Source: Aromatoleum buckelii
Lineage (GTDB): Bacteria; Pseudomonadota; Gammaproteobacteria; Burkholderiales; Rhodocyclaceae
Assembly (NCBI RefSeq): GCF_012910785.2
Contig: NZ_WTVH02000010.1
Span: 1,550,001 to 1,614,000, forward strand
Direction: 5' to 3'
DNA length: 64,000 bases
A model generated the notes under the pieces. That model did not search any database and was not told where the DNA came from. It saw only the letters and a list, made by a program, of their open reading frames with translations. The translations under genes were made by a program, and so were the position numbers. Shown one piece after another: positions 39,876-48,882 of this stretch (position 1 is the first letter of the stretch; each line of letters starts with the position of its first letter).

Positions 39876-41825
39876 ATGATCACCCGACGGTTGTTCCTGA
39901 AAGCGACTGTATGGATGGGTGCCCTGCTGCTGCCATGGAAATGGGGCAGCCGGCATGCATCTGCCGCCCCTATTCCCGGCGGCACCCTCGATCCGACGAC
40001 GATCTCCAAGTACCGGATGCCGCTGGTCATCCCGCCGGCGATGCCGCAGACCCCGCCGCCCACGCCTACGGTCGACGTCGACTACTACGAAATCGCCGTC
40101 CGCCAGTTCCAGCAGCAGATCCTGCCGAGGGGCATGCCGATGACGACGGTGTGGAGCTACGGCTCCGTCAACCATTCCGACACGTTCCACTACCCCGCCT
40201 TCACGATCGAGGCCCGGTACGGTGCGCCGGTTCGGGTGAAGTGGATCAACGGCCTGGTGGACGAGCACGGCCGGTACCTGCAGCACCTGCTACCAGTCGA
40301 TGCGAGCCTGCACTGGGCGAATCCTGCCGGGGGCCCTACGGGGCGCGATGCGCATCCGGTCGTCGACGCGACACCCGGACCCTACACCGGCCCGGTTCCC
40401 ATCGTCACTCATCTCCACGGCGGGCACACCCATGACGACAGCGACGGATTCCCGGAGGCGTGGTATCTACCGCACGCGAGCAACATTCCCGGCGGTTTCG
40501 CCCGCTTCGGCTCCGAATACCAGCGGTTCCGCGCGAAGGCCCAAGCGCGCATGGGACAGGCATGGACGACCGGCTCGGCGGTATTCGAGTACGAGAACGA
40601 CCAGGATGCGGCGACGCTGTGGTACCACGACCACACGCTCGGCATGACCCGGCTCAACGTCTATGCGGGACCGGCGGGCTTCTATCTGATCCGCGGCGGC
40701 GACCGCGACGTGCCGGACGCCGTGCTCCCCGGACCGGCCGCCGGTATGGGCGCCGATCCCTTCGGACGGCATTACGAGATTCCTCTCGCGATCCAGGACC
40801 GCTCGTTCAACGCCGACGGCTCGCTGTTCTACCCGGACAGCCGCACGTTTTTCGACGGCTACGAGGGGCCGTACTTCCCTCACACCGAGGTGCCGCCGAT
40901 CTGGAACCCGGAATTCTTCGGCAACACCATCGTCGTCAATGGCCGCACCTGGCCCTACCTGGAAGTCGAGCCGCGCCGATATCGCTTCCGGCTTCTGAAC
41001 GGCTGCAACTCGCGTTTCCTCATCCTCGAGTTCGACGACCCCGCTCTCGCCTTCTGGCAGATCGGCGGGGACGGCGGCTTCCTGCCTGCCGCAGTGCAAC
41101 TCCGCCGCTTGCTGCTGGCGCCCGCCGAGCGGGCCGACGTGATCGTCGACTTCACGGGGCGGACGGTCGGCGTAGAGATCACCTTGCGGAACCTCGGGCC
41201 GGACGAGCCGTTCGGCGGCGGCGTGCCGGACGACGACTTCGCGGCCGCCGATGCTGGCACCACCGGCCAAGTGATGCAGTTCCGGATCGTTCCCCTCACC
41301 GCTGCGGATCCGAGCACGCCGCCCGCCGAACTCCTGCTGCCGGCGTTGAGGCCGCTCGGACTGGCAACTTTCACGCGGAAGGTGGCGCTGAACGAGAAGA
41401 CGGCCGGATCGCCGGATTTCGACGGACCCGTCGAGGCGAAGCTCGGGATCATCGACGAGAACGGCGTGAACATCCCCCTCGACTGGCAGAACGAGGTCAC
41501 CGAGAACCCCGCGCTCGAGTCGATCGAGACCTGGGAGATCCACAACTTCACCGAGGACGCGCACCCGATCCATATCCACGAAGTGCAGTTCGAGGTGGTC
41601 GATCGGCAGCCGTTCGACGGCGCCCCGTACGGGCCGGAGCCCGGCGAGACTGGCCCCAAGGACACGGTCATCGCCTATCCGGGCGAGATCACCCGGGTGA
41701 AGGCGTTGTTCGATCGTCCGGGGCTATACGTCTGGCACTGCCACATCGTCGAGCACGAGGACAACGAGATGATGCGGCGGTACGTCATCGGGCCGATGAG
41801 CGCGGGCGATGCCGGTCACCGCTAG
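39876..41825 (+). CDS. Exported multicopper oxidase
   Basis: 649 residues with a twin-arginine leader (MITRRLFLKATVWMGALLL). All copper-binding motifs are present: HLHGGH near residue 173, WYHDH near 250, HPIHIH near 566 and the type 1 site HCHIVEHEDNEMM near 622. It resembles bilirubin-oxidase/CotA-type laccases. Such enzymes oxidise phenols or metal ions (Cu(I), Mn(II)) with oxygen. Its position beside the regulatory trio and a sigma54-type promoter suggest shared control with the molybdoenzyme, which would be unexpected for an oxygen-using enzyme. Substrate cannot be given. Confidence 0.88.
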   Translation: MITRRLFLKATVWMGALLLPWKWGSRHASAAPIPGGTLDPTTISKYRMPLVIPPAMPQTPPPTPTVDVDYYEIAVRQFQQQILPRGMPMTTVWSYGSVNHSDTFHYPAFTIEARYGAPVRVKWINGLVDEHGRYLQHLLPVDASLHWANPAGGPTGRDAHPVVDATPGPYTGPVPIVTHLHGGHTHDDSDGFPEAWYLPHASNIPGGFARFGSEYQRFRAKAQARMGQAWTTGSAVFEYENDQDAATLWYHDHTLGMTRLNVYAGPAGFYLIRGGDRDVPDAVLPGPAAGMGADPFGRHYEIPLAIQDRSFNADGSLFYPDSRTFFDGYEGPYFPHTEVPPIWNPEFFGNTIVVNGRTWPYLEVEPRRYRFRLLNGCNSRFLILEFDDPALAFWQIGGDGGFLPAAVQLRRLLLAPAERADVIVDFTGRTVGVEITLRNLGPDEPFGGGVPDDDFAAADAGTTGQVMQFRIVPLTAADPSTPPAELLLPALRPLGLATFTRKVALNEKTAGSPDFDGPVEAKLGIIDENGVNIPLDWQNEVTENPALESIETWEIHNFTEDAHPIHIHEVQFEVVDRQPFDGAPYGPEPGETGPKDTVIAYPGEITRVKALFDRPGLYVWHCHIVEHEDNEMMRRYVIGPMSAGDAGHR

Positions 41826-41912: not shown

Positions 41913-42722
41913 TCAACTGTGCCCCATCCATGCCCGTAGGCGGTCGCTCAGCGCGTCGACGGCGAGCACCAGCACGAACATCGCGATCAGCACCGTGGCT
42001 GCCTGTGCCTGCTGGAAGATCGACAGGTGGAAGTACAGCATCTGCCCGAGGCCACCGGCGCCGACGAAGCCCAGCACTGCGGCCATGCGGATATTCATCT
42101 CCAGTCGGTAGAGCCCGTACGCCACGGATTGGGCCCACACCAGCGGCAGGGTTCCATAGAGGAAGGCCGGCACTCCGCCGCTGCCGGTTTCCAGAAGGCT
42201 TTGCTCGGGCTGCGGCGGGGCGTTCTCGATCGCTTCGGCGAACAGCCGGCCGAGCACGCCCGTGGTGTGCAGCGCCAGCGCCAGCACCCCGGCAAACGGG
42301 CCGAGCCCGGCGGCCAGCACCATCAGCGTCGCCCACACCAGTTCGGGCACGCTGCGCAACAGGTTGAGCAGGAAACGCGACAGGCGTTCGGCCGCGGCGC
42401 CGTGGCGCCCTGCCGCCGGCAGCGCGAGCAGCAACCCGGCGGCCGCGGCGAGCAGCGTACCGATCATCGCCACCGCGAACGTCTGCAAGGCTCCGTAGGC
42501 GGTCTTGCGCAGGAAGTCGGGTTCGAGATCGGGCGGGAAGAACGACGCTGCGAAGCGCGCCATGTCAGCCCCTGCGCCGACCGAGAAGAGCGTTCCGAAG
42601 TCGATTCCGAGATAGACAAAGCTCCCCGCTACCGCGGCGGCGACCAGCGCGCAGGTCAGCACGCAACTCAGACAGAAGTCGGCCGCGCCTCGCGGGGCGC
42701 AGGGCTCGCGGGTCTCGTTCAT
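41913..42722 (-). CDS. PhnE-type ABC permease 2 (putative selenium oxyanion uptake)
   Basis: 269 residues, about six membrane helices, with an EAA-like loop near the C-terminus (GFVGAGGLGQMLYFHLSIFQQ). It pairs with the preceding PhnE-like permease, overlapping it by four bases, as the last gene of the operon. The PhnCDE family imports phosphonate, phosphite or similar oxyanions. No C-P lyase or phosphite dehydrogenase gene is present. Linkage to SenB/SenA-like genes suggests selenate or selenite as substrate. Confidence 0.75.
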   Translation of the reverse strand: MNETREPCAPRGAADFCLSCVLTCALVAAAVAGSFVYLGIDFGTLFSVGAGADMARFAASFFPPDLEPDFLRKTAYGALQTFAVAMIGTLLAAAAGLLLALPAAGRHGAAAERLSRFLLNLLRSVPELVWATLMVLAAGLGPFAGVLALALHTTGVLGRLFAEAIENAPPQPEQSLLETGSGGVPAFLYGTLPLVWAQSVAYGLYRLEMNIRMAAVLGFVGAGGLGQMLYFHLSIFQQAQAATVLIAMFVLVLAVDALSDRLRAWMGHS

Positions 42723-43561
42723 GCGAGCGCCCTGCGCAGGGTCGCGCTCAGTGAGTCGGCGAACAACACCAGCACGAGGAAGACGAAGAGAATCGTCGCC
42801 GCTTCACCGCCGTTGAGCATCTTCATCGACTGGTCCATCAATTGTCCGAGCCCGCCCGCACCGACAAAACCCATGATCACCGAGGCGCGCACCGCGCATT
42901 CCCAGCGATAGACCGTGTACGAGGTCAGCTCCTGCGCGGCGTTGGGCAGCAGCCCGTAAGCGAGGGCGGCGAAGCGCCCGCCGCCGGCTTCGAGGATCGC
43001 GCGCGCGGGGCGCGTGTCGATCGATTCGAGGATCTCGGTGTAGACCTTGCCGAGCATTCCGCCGTAGGTGATCGCGAGCGCCAGCACGCCGGCCGCAGGG
43101 CCGAGGCCGAGCACGCGCACGAACATCAGCGCCCAGACGATCTCCGGAATTGCGCGCAGGAAAGTCAGTAGCGCTCGTCCTGCGGCGCGCGCCATCCTGT
43201 CGCCCAGGCGCCCCGGCCCCGGGCCGATCTTCGACACCGCCAGCGCGCGCGTGCTCAGGATCGAGAGGGGCACCGCCAGCAGCAGCGCGAGCGCGATGCC
43301 GGCGGTGGCGATCGCCATCGTTTCCAGCGTCGCATCGAGGAGGTAACCGAGAAACTCGGTCGAGGTGGCCGGCGGCAGAAAGCCGCCGAGAAAGCTGCCC
43401 ATGACCCGCAGATTGCCGGCGTCGAACAACGCCCAGGGGCGGAACTCGGCCAGCACCAGCAGCGGCCACAGCAGCACCAGCGCCACGAGCGTCCAGCCCA
43501 GCCGCGCACGGGTGTCCGGGTCGCGATGGGGCGGCGAGAGCGCTTGGGTCGATGCGCTCAT
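42719..43561 (-). CDS. PhnE-type ABC permease 1 (putative selenium oxyanion uptake)
   Basis: 280 residues. A first helix near residues 25-40 and five more follow, with the loop GFVGAGGLGQLMDQSMKML contacting the ATPase. It is similar to the second permease (shared FVGAGGLGQ segment) and was probably duplicated. The start ATG lies two bases after the ATPase stop; a longer frame running through the ATPase gene is rejected. Confidence 0.75.
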   Translation of the reverse strand: MSASTQALSPPHRDPDTRARLGWTLVALVLLWPLLVLAEFRPWALFDAGNLRVMGSFLGGFLPPATSTEFLGYLLDATLETMAIATAGIALALLLAVPLSILSTRALAVSKIGPGPGRLGDRMARAAGRALLTFLRAIPEIVWALMFVRVLGLGPAAGVLALAITYGGMLGKVYTEILESIDTRPARAILEAGGGRFAALAYGLLPNAAQELTSYTVYRWECAVRASVIMGFVGAGGLGQLMDQSMKMLNGGEAATILFVFLVLVLFADSLSATLRRALA

Positions 43562-43563
43562 GT

Positions 43564-44406
43564 TCAGCGTCCGCGGGAGGTGTCGAGGCGAATGACCTTC
43601 GCGTCCGCCTCGGGATCGGTCGTCGCGCCGGCCGCGGCGTCCCGGGCTTGCACCGGCAGCATGGCGCCCTCGGCGGCATAGAGTTCGTGCAGCATCGAAT
43701 CCGTGAGGCGGGCGGTTGGCAGGTCGAACACCACTTCGCCGCCGCGCAGGCCGATGATGCGCGGAAACCACTTGAGCGCCAGGTCGACCGCGTGCAACGA
43801 CGCGAACAGGCTGGCGCCGCTGCGCGCCGATTCGGCGACCAGCTCGCCGAGCGCCGCATCGGCGAGCGCGGGGTCGAGCGCGGAAACCGGCTCGTCGGCG
43901 AGGATCAGGTCGGGCTGCTGATAGAGCACGCGGGCGATGCCGACGCGCTGCAACTGCCCGCCCGAGAGCCGGTCGCAGCGCTCGAACAGGCGGTCGGCGA
44001 GGTCGAAGCGCGCGAGCGCCGCGTGCGCTCCGGCGACGTCGACCGGATAGAGCAGCGACAGCAGGCCTTTCCACGCCGGCCAGCGGCCGAGCCGTCCGGC
44101 GTGGATCGCGGTGACCACGCGCAGGCGCGGCGGGATCGGCGGGCTCTGGTGGATCGTGCCGATGCGCGCCCGCAGGCGCCGCAGCGCGCCCGCCGACAAC
44201 CGCCAAGGGTTGGCGCCGAGAACGTCGAGCCGCCCTTCGGTCGGGCGCAGCGCGGTGCCGAGGAGCCGGATCAGGCTGGTCTTGCCGGCGCCCGACGGGC
44301 CGATCACCGCGACCCGCTCGCCTCGGCCTACGCGCAGCGATACGCGCTGCAGCGCGCGAAAGCCGTTGCCGTGGGTCAGCCCGGCGCTTTCCAGTTCAAA
44401 TCCCAT
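43564..44406 (-). CDS. PhnC-type ABC transporter ATPase (putative selenium oxyanion uptake)
   Basis: 280 residues. Walker [10 protein letters not shown], signature [13 protein letters not shown], Walker [14 protein letters not shown] and the switch His (SLHAVDLAL) are complete. It drives the two PhnE-like permeases with the PhnD-like binding protein encoded 19 bases upstream. Specificity cannot be derived from the ATPase; context points to selenium. Confidence 0.8.
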
Positions 44407-44425
44407 TCGCGCGCTCCGCGGGGGC

Positions 44426-45289
44426 TTACTTGATCAGCCCGGCACTGCGCGCCGCACGCTCGATGGCGTCGTAATTGGCGCTGGTGGTGGGCACGTATTT
44501 CGAGGCTCGCTGCAGCGTCATCAGTTCCTTGTGGACAGGATCAGACGGATCGAGCTTCAGGAACGCATCGGCGATCTTTTCGCGCAGCGCCGCGTCGAGG
44601 CCGGGGCGCACCGTCCAGTTGTAATCGTAGTAAGGCGGCGTCGTGGCGATGACCCTGACGCGGCCGGCGTTGGCGTCGCCCTTCTCGAGCAGCTTGTCCA
44701 GCACCGAGGCGCTGAGCACGCCCGCTTCGGCGCGACCGGAGGCGACGAACGCGACGGTCGCGTCGTGCGCCCCGGAGAAGGCGATGCGCGTGAAGTCCTT
44801 GTCGGGGTCGATGCCGTCCTCGAGCAGGAAGAAGCGCGGCATCAAGTGTCCCGAGGTCGACGAGGGCGAACCGAAGGCGAAAGTCTTGCCCTTCAGCTCG
44901 GAAAGCGATTTGACTGGGCTGTCGGCCGGCACGATGAACTTGCTGGTGAAGACTTCGTCTTCGACGCGCTGGACGATCGGCAGCGCCTCGCCGTGGGTGC
45001 GCAGTCTGGCCTGCACGAAAGTGAATCCGCCAAGCCAGGCGAGATCGATCTTCTTCGCCGCCAGGCCTTCGACCACGGCCGCGTAGTCGCTGACGGGGGT
45101 GAACACCACTTCGAGGCCGGTCTCCTTTTCAAGATACTCCCCGAGCGGCTTGAACTTGCGCTGCAGCTCGGTCGGCGCCTCGTCGGGAATCGCCGATACG
45201 CGCAAGACCTGCGCGTGGGCCGCGGCCGCACCGAGCATCAACGTAAACGCTAGCGCGCAGCGGGAAATCAGGTTGGATATCGGAATCAT
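44426..45289 (-). CDS. PhnD-type periplasmic binding protein (putative selenate)
   Basis: 287 residues with a signal peptide ending in AAAHAQ. It has the PhnD-like pattern [41 protein letters not shown] and [20 protein letters not shown] family of PhnD-like proteins found beside selenium genes is annotated as putative selenate-binding; this match is from memory of that annotation and was not checked. The gene follows SenB in the same direction and precedes the ATPase and permeases, giving a SenB-D-C-E-E order. It is a paralogue of the sensor protein about 9 kb away. Confidence 0.75.
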
Positions 45290-45356
45290 CGGGTTCTCCA
45301 CTCTCCAGTGACGCTTCGCGGGCGGCACGATGCGGCACGGAGCCGCCGGGAGGGCT

Positions 45357-45459
45357 GTTATATCAGAAGCCGGGCCGCTTCGAGGGCCGCTTCGAGGGCA
45401 GCGTCGGGGGCGGCAAAGGAGGCGGGGTCGTGCCCGATCGTCTTCATCAGCGTCCGCAT
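45357..45459 (-). CDS. Possible 33-residue small protein after senB
   Basis: Immediately after the senB TGA an ATG (TGAATG) opens a 33-codon frame (MRTLMKTIGHDPASFAAPDA, then two AALEA repeats and a TAA). It could be translated by reinitiation. It might equally be a decayed remnant. No family recognised. Confidence 0.3.
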
Positions 45460-46470
45460 TCAGCTCGTTCCCGCGGGTCGCGACAGCAGATCGCCGACCA
45501 GCCGGCGCAGCGCCGCACGCTCGCATTCCGGTGCGAACAGCGGTGCACGCTGCCGGCACTGTTCGGCCAGCCGTGCGATCAGCCTGTCGCCCTCTCCCAC
45601 GAGCGATTCCCGACAGCGTAACAGCAGCGCCGCCAGCGCCTCGGCGTCGCCCCACGGAAAGTAGCCGGCATAATCGGCACCGAGCATCCCGACGTTTCCG
45701 TCGATGCGCGATGCGAGCACTGGCGTGCCGCTCGCGACCGCTTCCATCACGACGTGCGCGCCGCCTTCCATGCGACTCGCGTGGATGAGCAGATGCGCGC
45801 GCTGGATGTGGCGGCGCACCGCCTCGTGCGGTTGCCCGCCGAGCCAGCGGTAGTTCGGTGCCGCAGCCATTGTCGCTCGCGCGGCCTTGCCGAGCGCCGG
45901 ATCGAGCGGATCGCCGATGTGGTCGATGAAGATGTCGCGCCGCTTGGCGAGCAGCCGTGCGGCGGCGAACAGCGTCTGCGGCGACTTTTCCTCGCGCAGG
46001 TGGCCGACCATCACCGCCCGCAGATGAAGCGACGACTTCGCGAGCGCCTTTCGCGCAGTGGTGGACTGGAAAATCACATGCGCCTTCGCGCGCACCGCTT
46101 CCGGCAGCGCGTGCGGCGCGCATTCCTGCAGCACGACGAGCGCCTGCGCGAGATCCAGCGAGCGCCGCGCCGCAGCGTCGGTAATGACGTCGCGATACAG
46201 GTCGGTCCCGGTGAGCACCACCGCCAGGCCCTTGCCCGGGCGCGCGCTGGCCCAGGCCGCGATCGATTGCGCCGACCGACGCGCATGCAGGGCGATCATC
46301 GCGGCGTCGCCGGTGGCCAGCGCATCTGGCCAAGCCTTGACGATGCGCACATGGCAGTGGCCCGCGAGGTGCCGCTGCCAGCGCCGCGCCGTCTGCCAGT
46401 TGCCGTTGTTCGCATCGCGCAGCGCCGGACTGACGATCACCAGTTGCGGCATACTCGTGGCACCGGTCAT
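45460..46470 (-). CDS. senB: SenB-like selenosugar synthase (glycosyltransferase family)
   Basis: 336 residues. A GT-B glycosyltransferase with VIVSPALRDANNGNWQTARR at the N-terminus, TGTDLYRD mid-protein and the C-terminal nucleotide-sugar site HASRMEGGAHVVMEAVASGT. This sequence style matches the selenium-linked glycosyltransferases known as SenB, which transfer selenium from selenophosphate to a UDP-sugar to make a selenosugar. The partner SenA-like gene is divergent and adjacent. The ATG used has an AAGGGG site nine bases upstream; an internal ATG six codons later is possible. Confidence 0.8.
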   Translation of the reverse strand: MTGATSMPQLVIVSPALRDANNGNWQTARRWQRHLAGHCHVRIVKAWPDALATGDAAMIALHARRSAQSIAAWASARPGKGLAVVLTGTDLYRDVITDAAARRSLDLAQALVVLQECAPHALPEAVRAKAHVIFQSTTARKALAKSSLHLRAVMVGHLREEKSPQTLFAAARLLAKRRDIFIDHIGDPLDPALGKAARATMAAAPNYRWLGGQPHEAVRRHIQRAHLLIHASRMEGGAHVVMEAVASGTPVLASRIDGNVGMLGADYAGYFPWGDAEALAALLLRCRESLVGEGDRLIARLAEQCRQRAPLFAPECERAALRRLVGDLLSRPAGTS

Positions 46471-46487
46471 TACACGTCGCCCCTTCC

Positions 46488-47642
46488 ATGAACGTCGACG
46501 CCGCCCGCTCCGAAGCCGCCCGTCGTGGCGGCCGCCAGGTCCTCGCCGCCGCGCTTGCCGACGGCCGCGCGCGCACGCTGGCGCTGCTCGATGCTTACGC
46601 CGCCGCGCTCGGCGAGTCGCTGGCGGTTCCCTGTTCGCCGCAGCTCAACCCGCCGCGCTGGGAAGCCGGGCATATCGGCTGGTTCCAGGACTACTGGATC
46701 GCGCGCAACCGGCAGCGCGCGATGGGCGTCGCCTGCGACCCCGACCATCAGCGCCTCGCCGGGCGCTTCGCGCAGGCCGACGCGCTGTACGACTCGAGCA
46801 AGGTACCGCATTCGACCCGCTGGCAGCTCGACCTGCCCGACCTCGCCGCGACCCGCGCCTATCTGGCCGAGAGCCTGGCGGAGACGCTGGCGCTGCTCGC
46901 CGCGACGCCCGAGACCGACGCGGACCTGTATTTTTTCCGCTTGGTATTGTTTCACGAGGACATGCACGGCGAGGCCGGGATCTACATGGCGCAAGCGCTC
47001 GATATCCCGCTGCCCGAGCCGCTGCTCGGGCCGGAGAGTAACATGTCGGAGGCTCGCGCACTGCGGGTCGCGGCGCAGAGCTCGACGCTCGGCTGGCACG
47101 GTGACGGCTTCGCCTTCGATAACGAAGTGACGGCCCACGAGGTCGCGGTGCCGGCCTTCGAGATCGATTCCGAGGTGGTGAGCTGGCGCCGCTACCTGCC
47201 TTTCGTCGAGCAGACCGGCGCCGCGCCCCCGCGCTATCTGCGCCGGGACGACGGCGGCTGGCAGCGCTGCGTTTTTGGCCGCTGGGAGGCGCTGCCGCTG
47301 GATGCTCCGGCCGTGCATCTGCGCTGGGACGAAGCCGACGCGTGGTGCCGCTGGGCAGGGCGGCGCCTCCCCCGCGAAGCCGAATGGGAAGTCGCCGCGC
47401 TGACGCATCCGGCATTCCGCTGGGGCGAGGTCTGGGAATGGACCGACAGCCGCTTCGCGCCCTACCCCGGTTTCGTCCCCCACCCGTACCGAGACTACTC
47501 GGCGCCGTGGTTCGGCGACCGCTACGTGCTGCGCGGCGCGAGTCGGGCGACAAGCCCGCGCATCGCGCATCCGCGCTACCGCAACTACTTCACTCCCGAG
47601 CGCAATGACCTGCACAACGGCTTTCGCAGTTGCGCATGCTAG
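46488..47642 (+). CDS. senA: SenA-like selenoneine synthase (EgtB family)
   Basis: 384 residues. A DinB-like domain carries the iron-binding His set, H62 (EAGHIGWFQ) and H156/H160 (FHEDMHGEA). It is followed by a formylglycine-synthase-like domain (CRWAGRRLPREAEWEVAA, then a FRSC ending). EgtB-type enzymes join a sulfur donor to hercynine; SenA uses selenosugar from SenB. The adjacent SenB-like gene favours SenA over EgtB, and no egtD is beside it, so hercynine must come from elsewhere. The start codon is only 17 bases from the senB start. Confidence 0.8.
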   Translation: MNVDAARSEAARRGGRQVLAAALADGRARTLALLDAYAAALGESLAVPCSPQLNPPRWEAGHIGWFQDYWIARNRQRAMGVACDPDHQRLAGRFAQADALYDSSKVPHSTRWQLDLPDLAATRAYLAESLAETLALLAATPETDADLYFFRLVLFHEDMHGEAGIYMAQALDIPLPEPLLGPESNMSEARALRVAAQSSTLGWHGDGFAFDNEVTAHEVAVPAFEIDSEVVSWRRYLPFVEQTGAAPPRYLRRDDGGWQRCVFGRWEALPLDAPAVHLRWDEADAWCRWAGRRLPREAEWEVAALTHPAFRWGEVWEWTDSRFAPYPGFVPHPYRDYSAPWFGDRYVLRGASRATSPRIAHPRYRNYFTPERNDLHNGFRSCAC

Positions 47643-47997
47643 GGCCGGCGATTGCGCCACGAGTTCGGGGCCGGGCGACGAACACCACGCGTTGGATGCC
47701 AATTCGCCTTCCGCAATGAAATTGAGGGCAGTTTGAGAGACGTGCTCGATGTGGAGCATCCCTGCCCTGGACTCCCTCGAGCTTGCCCGTTCCGCTAACC
47801 GCCTCCCCAATGTCGCTATCGTGCGGGACCGGTCTGCCCTCCACGTCGCGCTGAACGCGGCGCTCAGTACAGACCGCTCGGGTCATAGAATGCGATGACT
47901 GCGACACCGCCACACTCTCGATGCGGGTGACAGCGAAGATGTCGCCGAGGCATGCGAGCATGCGCTCTATCCAACGGCGACGAGACTGCTGCGAGCG
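47643..47997. other. Intergenic stretch between senA and the Cache-domain gene
   Basis: About 350 bases with no convincing gene or RNA. The overlapping short frames have no family features. Both flanking genes end here (convergent). Confidence 0.5.
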
Positions 47998-48882
47998 TTA
48001 CCGCTTGTAGTAGCCGACGCCGACCATCGTTTCACCTACGCGTCGGATATAGCTGCGTTTCGACTCGATCTTTCCCGAAACGGGATTCAGCCACTTGTAG
48101 TCGAGCTTGCCACTCGTGCTCTGGCCCAGTTGGGCGATCATCTCGCTGACGATGTGCCGCCGGGTCGGATCGACGAGTCGGTGTGAATCGGTGCCGACGA
48201 GACCCGGTTGAGCGGCGTAGGCGACGAAACGCCGGCTGCGCAGGTCGACCGCGAACACGTACAAGTCGTCGCGCACGAAGCGCCCGTCGATCCGCTGGAA
48301 TGCGGCGAACGCGATGGCCTCATCGGCTTTCACCGCTTTCGCCGCCGCATCGACCATCGCCTTTGCGTCGGCCGGCGTCGCGCGGGGAGAAAAGTAGCCG
48401 ACGGCGACAATCAGGCCGCCCACTTTGCGGAACAGCGTCACCTTCGGCTCGCCGCGGCTGTCGGCGGGGTTGAACCATTTATATTCGACCCGTCCGCCGC
48501 CCTGCTCTTTCGCGAGCCGAACGATCTCGTGGAAGAACGGCTTACCCTCCGCGTCGGTGTAGTCGAGCACGTTGGTCCCGACGAGAGCGGCGGAAAAACC
48601 GCAGCTCGCGAGGAAGCGCCCGTCGGTGCGCAGCGCATACGCGTAGAGGTCGCGGTCGACGAACTGCTCCTCGCGAGCGAAGGCCTGGACGCCGGCTTCG
48701 CCGTGCGCCTGGACGTGGCGCACGGCCCGCTCGAGGAGCACAGCCGCGCGTTTTTCGGCAGCGGTCACGATGCGCGGCCCATCCGCACGGGCCCGGCCCA
48801 CGTCCTGCGGCAATGCGGTCCCGGCCCACAGCGCGAAACCACCGAGCACGAGGGCGCGAACGATACGGATTCTGGTAAACAT
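47998..48882 (-). CDS. Secreted double Cache-domain protein
   Basis: 294 residues. An N-terminal signal peptide (RALVLGGFALWAGTALPQ) is followed by two similar Cache-type modules (about 45-155 and 165-290), each with a Y(K)W-N/P strand (EYKWFNPAD, DYKWLNPVS) and GYF/GYYKR end. There is no second membrane segment or signalling output. Cache domains bind small ligands in chemoreceptors and kinases; here it is free and last in a TRAP transporter operon. It may act as an additional binding protein. Spacing to dctM is 31 bases. Confidence 0.75.
   Translation of the reverse strand: MFTRIRIVRALVLGGFALWAGTALPQDVGRARADGPRIVTAAEKRAAVLLERAVRHVQAHGEAGVQAFAREEQFVDRDLYAYALRTDGRFLASCGFSAALVGTNVLDYTDAEGKPFFHEIVRLAKEQGGGRVEYKWFNPADSRGEPKVTLFRKVGGLIVAVGYFSPRATPADAKAMVDAAAKAVKADEAIAFAAFQRIDGRFVRDDLYVFAVDLRSRRFVAYAAQPGLVGTDSHRLVDPTRRHIVSEMIAQLGQSTSGKLDYKWLNPVSGKIESKRSYIRRVGETMVGVGYYKR

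Follow-up and report, generated by a model that had tools for sequence, protein, structure and literature searches.

A selenoneine gene cluster with a putative selenium importer in Aromatoleum buckelii, and a candidate regulatory RNA linked to its importer family

What does an ATP-binding cassette (ABC) importer carry when its genes lie directly behind a gene for selenosugar synthesis? The question is raised by positions 41913-47642 of a 64 000 nucleotide (nt) stretch of Aromatoleum buckelii contig NZ_WTVH02000010.1 (the window, meaning the whole stretch analysed). An initial annotation, made from the letters of the sequence, had read a minus-strand order of SenB followed by PhnD-, PhnC-, PhnE- and PhnE-type genes with a divergent SenA, and had proposed that the transporter supplies selenium oxyanion to selenoneine synthesis. 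The open reading frames of the window confirm all six genes in place, order and strand. Our analysis favours, with a probability of roughly 0.7, a gene cluster for selenoneine synthesis that is equipped with a selenium importer of its own, and the selenium-supply reading of the transporter is probably right. The features discussed are as follows (bp, base pairs; aa, amino acids).

46488-47642, plus strand: senA, selenoneine synthase, an EgtB-family non-haem iron enzyme, 384 aa (NF041186, PDB 8ryz/8k5i, residues)
46471-46487: gap of 17 bp between the start codons of the divergent senA and senB
45460-46470, minus strand: senB, selenosugar synthase (Se-glycosyltransferase), 336 aa (TIGR04348, PDB relatives, residues)
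45282-45346, minus strand: possible degenerate remnant of a leader RNA, non-significant (model R2)
44426-45289, minus strand: 287 aa protein beginning with a signal-peptide-like sequence, the periplasmic binding component of the putative selenium importer (TIGR04553, PhnD1 alignment)
43564-44406, minus strand: ABC ATPase (PhnC-like), 280 aa, with Walker A GPSGAGKT at 36 and LSGGQ at 147
42719-43561, minus strand: ABC permease 1 (PhnE-like), 280 aa
41913-42722, minus strand: ABC permease 2 (PhnE-like), 269 aa

The two selenoneine enzymes are ordinary new members of known families. In curated profile searches SenA scored 482.5 bits against NF041186 (cut-off 420), compared with 207 bits against the EgtB model TIGR03440 (cut-off 360) and 59.8 against OvoA (cut-off 400), and it matched the solved SenA structures 8ryz/8k5i at 403 bits, versus 137 for OvsA and 117 for EgtB. 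The protein is therefore nearer to SenA than to the ergothioneine and ovothiol enzymes, and these profile scores and structure matches rule out an EgtB or OvoA identity. The iron-binding histidines named beforehand, H62, H156 and H160, are all present and align with those of the solved SenA. The glycosyltransferase assignment of SenB held equally well, with 447.5 bits against TIGR04348 (cut-off 300) and 408-430 bits against PDB 8k5u/8fbx/8jjq. SenB keeps an EGGAHV motif and N24, T27, H62, R65, T87, T89, R159, K162 and E235, the equivalents of Variovorax N20, T23, H58, R61, T83, T85, R155, K158 and E231 given in the available text of PMC10891094. By analogy with published homologues, both enzymes presumably catalyse the reactions of their families.

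The rest of the pathway was found in the same genome. The selD gene (SenC), which had been predicted to lie elsewhere, is indeed absent from the sen cluster and sits at C2:1257042 (430 bits), ~0.34 Mb from the window cluster and adjoining selU, the gene for tRNA 2-selenouridine synthase (537 bits). A second gene whose presence had been posed as a check, egtD, lies at C2:1152031 (414 bits), and the genome holds both the selenophosphate synthase and the hercynine source of the sen pathway. Neither selB nor phnJ had a match in this genome; given the former result, selenium in this organism appears to go into selenouridine and selenoneine and not into selenocysteine.

The importer itself, at 41913-45289 on the minus strand, is a complete four-gene unit, tightly packed with spacings of 19, 2 and -4 bp. 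It follows senB after 170 bp (senB stop to binding-protein start) and may be expressed together with it; co-transcription across the cluster is presumed. The binding protein scored 352.1 bits against TIGR04553, a model named ‘putative selenate’ (cut-off 250), and 198.3 against the phosphonate PhnD model TIGR03431 (cut-off 261.1). The ATPase matched PhnC best, yet below its cut-off (199.6 of 266.1), and the permeases resemble PhnE, one of the two passing that model (204.8 and 227.7 against 216.7). The closest named relative of the binding protein, among the matches listed, is from Candidatus Accumulibacter necessarius (87%; L124). A phosphonate importer was ruled out by the PhnD and PhnC cut-offs together with the lack of a phnJ match in the genome and of any phnJ linkage. 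The initial annotation would have given up the selenium reading had the transporter grouped with phosphite or phosphonate importers, and here the outcome was divided: the protein passes the ‘selenate’ model and fails phosphonate PhnD, but its nearest solved structures, the picocyanobacterial PhnD1 proteins 7s6g and 5lq5 (41 and 36% identical in alignment), also pass TIGR04553, at 338 and 303 bits. Because these phosphite and phosphate binders share the family, sequence grouping alone leaves the ligand unsettled, and genome context carries most weight. The selenium idea for the binding protein is already contained in the NCBI name and is thus prior to our work.

Genome context was surveyed in 250 genomes of the order, 54 of which hold a binding protein above the TIGR04553 cut-off; scores were bimodal, at least 282 bits or at most 220 (one of the latter a partial match). 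The 54 order loci are 53 fetched loci, each reaching up to ~8 kb to either side (15 of the 53 shorter than 16 kb), plus the window. They were set beside 80 named loci, the best 80 of at least 595 stretches, which are biased to close relatives and include several Variovorax, and 40 control loci of like length around sub-cut-off paralogues picked from the order survey. A core selenium gene (SelD, SenA, SenB, SelU, SelA or SelB) was present in 12/54 order loci, the window included, versus 0/40 controls (p=0.001), and in 30/80 named loci. At the level of whole genomes, selD was found in 50/54 importer genomes versus 133/196 others (p=1e-4) and SenB in 30/54 versus 43/196 (p=6e-6), the SenB difference persisting within selD-bearing genomes (28/50 versus 43/133, p=0.004); the genomes are related, which makes these p values optimistic. 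PhnJ showed no association with the importer (7/54 versus 19/196 genomes, p=0.46), and lay within 16 kb of the above-cut-off protein in none of the seven genomes holding both, compared with 17/81 for sub-cut-off paralogues (taken from the order survey list).

All four importer genes occur in 47/53 fetched order loci and 75/80 named loci; the order loci that fall short are L095, L102, L103, L110, L115 and L116, some of them at contig ends. Complete clusters take the form SenA-SelD-importer-EgtD-SenB (L090, L149, L150, L151) or, in Variovorax, SelD-SenB-SenA-importer (L133, L136, L140). The SenA of L090, at 376.5 bits, is below the SenA cut-off of 420 and far above its own EgtB score of 194.7. 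Two distant tblastn matches to ‘SenA’, at L068 and L081, proved to be EgtB above cut-off; as SelD is present at both loci as well, the core count is unaffected by them. Loose gene clustering, followed by curated models on one representative of each cluster, identified SelA, SelB, MnmH/SelU, formate dehydrogenase N and FdhD as recurrent importer neighbours, and the formate dehydrogenase N alpha subunit has an in-frame TGA in both loci checked (L132, L254). On a tree of the binding protein (120 rows, 14 near-copies dropped), selenium linkage needs 12 changes, at least nine of which rest on well-supported branches; the window protein is in a starred set where 26 of the 31 rows have selenium linkage. 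One further locus, L144, is a 3.5 kb metagenome contig with SelD and the importer, whose title, Bordetella parapertussis, seems to be a label from binning more than a statement of species. A 2016 survey had noted an ABC ATPase close to orphan selD (PMC5029168, available text). Comparative genomics supports selenium import by this importer family.

These findings fit a model where the periplasmic protein (44426-45289) would capture a selenium oxyanion, most likely selenite, and the two permeases and the ATPase would move it into the cytoplasm, there to be reduced to selenide. SelD would then convert selenide to selenophosphate, from which SenB would make the selenosugar that SenA would join to hercynine, supplied by EgtD, to yield selenoneine. 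Transport, and selenite as the ligand, are the steps that we infer from context and pocket. The predicted pocket comprises D36, Y69, T90, S143-S144-T145-S146, H175 and D222 beneath the cap Y223, which is invariant in 24/24 aligned TIGR04553-type rows. Phosphite and selenite are both pyramidal XO3 ions. Since the pocket keeps phosphite-type (XO3) residues, selenite is favoured on these grounds as a more likely ligand than selenate, provided that the tyrosine face can accommodate the selenium lone pair.

Several observations weigh against the selenium reading, and some of them also feed the rival view that the importer takes phosphite or phosphate, its place beside senB being incidental or reflecting a shared phosphate-like intermediate. 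They come largely from work on PhnD1, cited here from the accessible portions of PMC10284923 and PMC5700983. The PhnD1 structures nearest to the window protein were solved with phosphite, methylphosphonate or phosphate, and the ligand and cap residues of Synechococcus PhnD1 are all kept in the window protein except N174, which is replaced by S (PMC10284923). Prochlorococcus PhnD1, a family member, binds phosphite in vitro with a Kd of 0.051 µM and phosphate with one of 182 µM, a ~3500-fold difference, and the tyrosine cap has been tied to phosphite (PMC5700983). The authors of the Synechococcus study conclude that the likely role of PhnDCE is constitutive phosphate transport with medium affinity, and they see its phosphite affinity as fortuitous; PhnDCE of strain WH8102 is said there to be induced under phosphorus shortage (PMC10284923). 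PhnE2 of the window passes the phosphonate PhnE model. The ‘selenate’ name of TIGR04553 is itself hypothetical. In the literature searched, no measurement of a selenium compound being bound or taken up by a TIGR04553 protein came to light, nor was any experimental work on the family as a selenium importer recognisable there from titles and the starts of abstracts. Besides the relatedness of the genomes, the stretch fetched for 42/54 order loci contains no core selenium gene, and 4/54 importer genomes (G002, G150, G183 and G190) lack a selD match, G190 (282 bits) having no ATPase or permease match either.

We nevertheless judge phosphite or phosphate import unlikely. The true phosphite protein PtxB fails TIGR04553 (164 bits of 250), the importer has no PhnJ link, and selD, selA, selB, selU and sen genes are recurrent neighbours, against 0/40 controls. 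The tested Synechococcus strains are unable to use either phosphite or methylphosphonate and are without known genes for it, as most picocyanobacteria are without phosphite-use genes (PMC10284923), and the in vivo function of Prochlorococcus PhnDCE is described as unknown (PMC5700983). The string ‘selen’ has no occurrence in either paper, so a selenium ligand was seemingly never tried on PhnD1; picocyanobacteria carry a selD-like gene and ybbB, according to the available text of PMC1273633. A variant of the preferred reading, and one that does not exclude it, is that the importer brings in selenate (tetrahedral SeO4) or several selenium oxyanions. The NCBIfam name says selenate and the Synechococcus PhnD1 crystal holds tetrahedral phosphate (PMC10284923), but the marked preference of Prochlorococcus PhnD1 for XO3 phosphite over XO4 phosphate (PMC5700983) and the invariant capping tyrosine leave this variant a real, if minor, chance. 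Import of an organic selenium compound or an ergothioneine-like product could be imagined from the EgtD and SenA genes in some importer clusters and from a related binder (SBP2) found behind the same leader RNA as the importer (described below). The pocket, however, resembles those of small-oxyanion binders with a closed tyrosine cap, and the importer also occurs next to selAB and selU, for which inorganic selenium is enough; we regard such a substrate as highly improbable.

If the importer serves selenium metabolism, is it also regulated with it? An answer is suggested by the leaders of the binding-protein gene, which in some relatives have hairpins in common. They define an RNA of ~100 nt with a P1 hairpin (GCGGU-CUGNGU-ACCGC), a variable P2 and a covarying P3, whose loop is able to pair with the ribosome-binding site. 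Seventeen leaders, aligned by sequence without fitting to any model, show 13 pairs, five with changes on both sides. The first covariance model, which superseded a strict-pattern scan, matched 33/80 named loci at E≤0.04, always just upstream of the binding-protein gene; 20 of the 33 lay outside the training set, two of these being near-copies of members. No such leader was found in the 40 control loci at E<1. Among the 54 order loci the count was only four, each a member of the training set; the RNA is therefore missing from the majority of the order's importer operons. Importer leaders were the first place looked, and the genome searches below are the less biased part of the evidence.

Covariation was assessed in a model-fitted alignment of 100 sites (98 distinct), where 96.5% of cells pair, although the fit itself favours structure. 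Changes on both sides occur in 12/13 pairs, a count reached by 2/500 shuffles, and the covariation score was 0.509 versus 0.215 in shuffles (0/500 reach it) and no more than 0.172 when slid. Ahead of P1 lies a -10-like box (best TATAAT match 4.1 versus 2.8 in shuffles, with 71 of 92 sites used), so that the 5′ end of the RNA is probably close to P1. Five leaders taken singly had weak thermodynamic z-scores (-0.2 to -1.7), and pairing of the loop with the ribosome site was modestly above shuffles (3.96 versus 3.69). Rfam gave no match over threshold in the window at 38-52 kb or in eight loci; at E up to 1 it gave none in one leader and a chance-level sRNA (small RNA) match, E 0.43, in another. 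No paper on a selenium riboswitch was found in the library searched, and the leader RNA is seemingly undescribed. The RNA of the relatives shows a conserved, covarying structure in the 5′ leaders of one putative regulon, as riboswitches do.

The RNA is not confined to the importer. When the first model was run on the 250 order genomes, seven of them yielded nine matches. Four of these precede the importer and another four precede different genes (in the A. buckelii genome itself, G202, G108 and G173); the ninth, at G010:C53 (30.1 bits), runs antisense over the start of an unrelated gene and was judged false and kept out of retraining. Retraining added the four non-importer matches, and the new model found 96 matches in 87/249 genomes of the window's family, of which 92 were examined (four at E 0.006-0.01 were left out). 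Of these 92 sites, 34 precede the importer gene and 23 the gene of a flavocytochrome-c-sulfide-dehydrogenase-like flavoprotein; 18 stand before a TlpA-like thioredoxin gene that has a transglutaminase-like gene behind it, and three before the latter alone. A second binder of the superfamily comes next at six sites and an ergothioneine EgtB gene at one (L311:3534-3642, 578 bits), leaving seven with none of these. SelA, often with SelB on the other side, accompanies 17/23 flavoprotein sites and 5/18 thioredoxin sites, in flanks that vary from 3 to 16 kb. In the family of G127, 7/250 genomes gave a match, five matches being strong and all before the importer gene, and two weak and before none of the genes sought. 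The presence of selD in 77/80 RNA genomes was not used as evidence, since 8/8 same-family genomes in the order survey have selD in any case.

Individual sites add some detail. At L254, L257, L294 and other family loci the gene of the flavoprotein, which is Tat-type, stands downstream of the RNA, behind selA and often before selB, and L294 has two RNA copies within one selA operon. The second binder follows the RNA at L309, L312, L313, L314, L320 and L335; it matches the window protein at ~125-140 bits and has similar pocket letters, and the one example tested scored 225 bits on TIGR04553 (cut-off 250). Among the seven sites with none of the listed genes, the RNA at L261 precedes what appear, by eye, to be the two ends of a deleted importer operon, that at L331 is cut at a contig end, and that at L263 stands before an acyl-CoA-dehydrogenase-family gene.

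The A. buckelii genome has one significant site, at C5:513753-513866 (L253:7754-7867, minus strand), which scored 57.9 bits with the first model and 68.6 with the retrained one, of which it was by then a training member. It precedes a TlpA-like thioredoxin gene, Tat-type by eye, and then the transglutaminase-like gene, which in this genome has an in-frame stop after the signal peptide. Upstream of the window importer there is a weak but correctly placed match (9.6 bits, E 0.27; second of 33 hits when 18 kb was searched unfiltered), in which a GCGGC-UCCGU-GCCGC hairpin stands before GGAG and the binding-protein start codon ATG; folding of 45289-45351 gave z -0.47. It is a possible remnant of the leader RNA.

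Around the cluster, two further features deserve mention. The 17 bp between senA and senB imply that their promoters must overlap coding sequence, or that start codons have been misjudged; a plain sigma-70 scan of window positions 44300-48100 returned 0 sites, and GGAAGGGG is a ribosome-site-like stretch of senB, with none visible by eye for senA. On the opposite strand to the importer, a multicopper oxidase gene (39876-41825) ends 87 bp from the last permease gene; its best partial match is the O-aminophenol oxidase PhsA, below cut-off.

The wider meaning is more tentative. At somewhat less than even odds, the importer family belongs to a selenium regulon under an undescribed cis-regulatory RNA, a candidate selenium-sensing riboswitch, and TIGR04553, PhnD1 included, would be the missing high-affinity selenite importer of bacteria. 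According to a 2026 review, a specific high-affinity transport system for selenium has yet to be identified in any prokaryote (PMC13188914, available text), and in a methanogen five candidate selenium transporters were dispensable (PMC11097638, available text). The window offers a concrete, cloneable importer candidate tied to a known selenium product. Crystallised PhnD1 proteins of marine origin belong to the same family, and as their physiological role is contested, whether selenite is bound could matter to two questions at once. The most novel lead is the RNA regulon, most of which is found beyond the window. With the importer, a hypothesis that already has a name becomes open to test. Should the leader RNA prove to sense selenium, it would represent a new class of riboswitch and a convenient reporter of selenium status.

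Comparison with known systems places the locus more exactly. It shares with the senABC selenoneine cluster of Variovorax (PMC9814287, PMC10891094) a SenA and a SenB above curated cut-offs with their catalytic residues kept, but differs in having no senC/selD within the cluster (selD is remote, beside selU), in the divergence of senA and senB, and in the four-gene importer after senB. The leader RNA invites comparison with the SECIS-like leader of E. coli selAB, an RNA element in a selenium operon, likewise near a start codon. That element has another fold, and 44/80 genomes with our RNA have no selB match (40/68 when the count is restricted to genomes of at least 90% completeness), so SelB is not a general partner, and a SelB-bound SECIS-like element is unlikely as the general mechanism.

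Sequence-related binding proteins of known structure include PtxB, phosphonate PhnD and the arsenic proteins AioX/ArrX. The tyrosine-capped pocket of the phosphite system PtxABC recurs in the window protein (D36, Y69, SSTS, H175, Y223), whereas PtxB falls below the TIGR04553 cut-off that the window protein exceeds. Picocyanobacterial PhnD1 is of the same family by score, with the same pocket letters bar N174; it is known in vitro as a phosphite and phosphate binder, while the window protein is a putative selenium binder. Like other TIGR04553 transporters, that of the window has a binding protein above cut-off within a conserved four-gene unit. The family name was a hypothesis; here, its link to selenium has been tested with controls, and the pocket argues for selenite.

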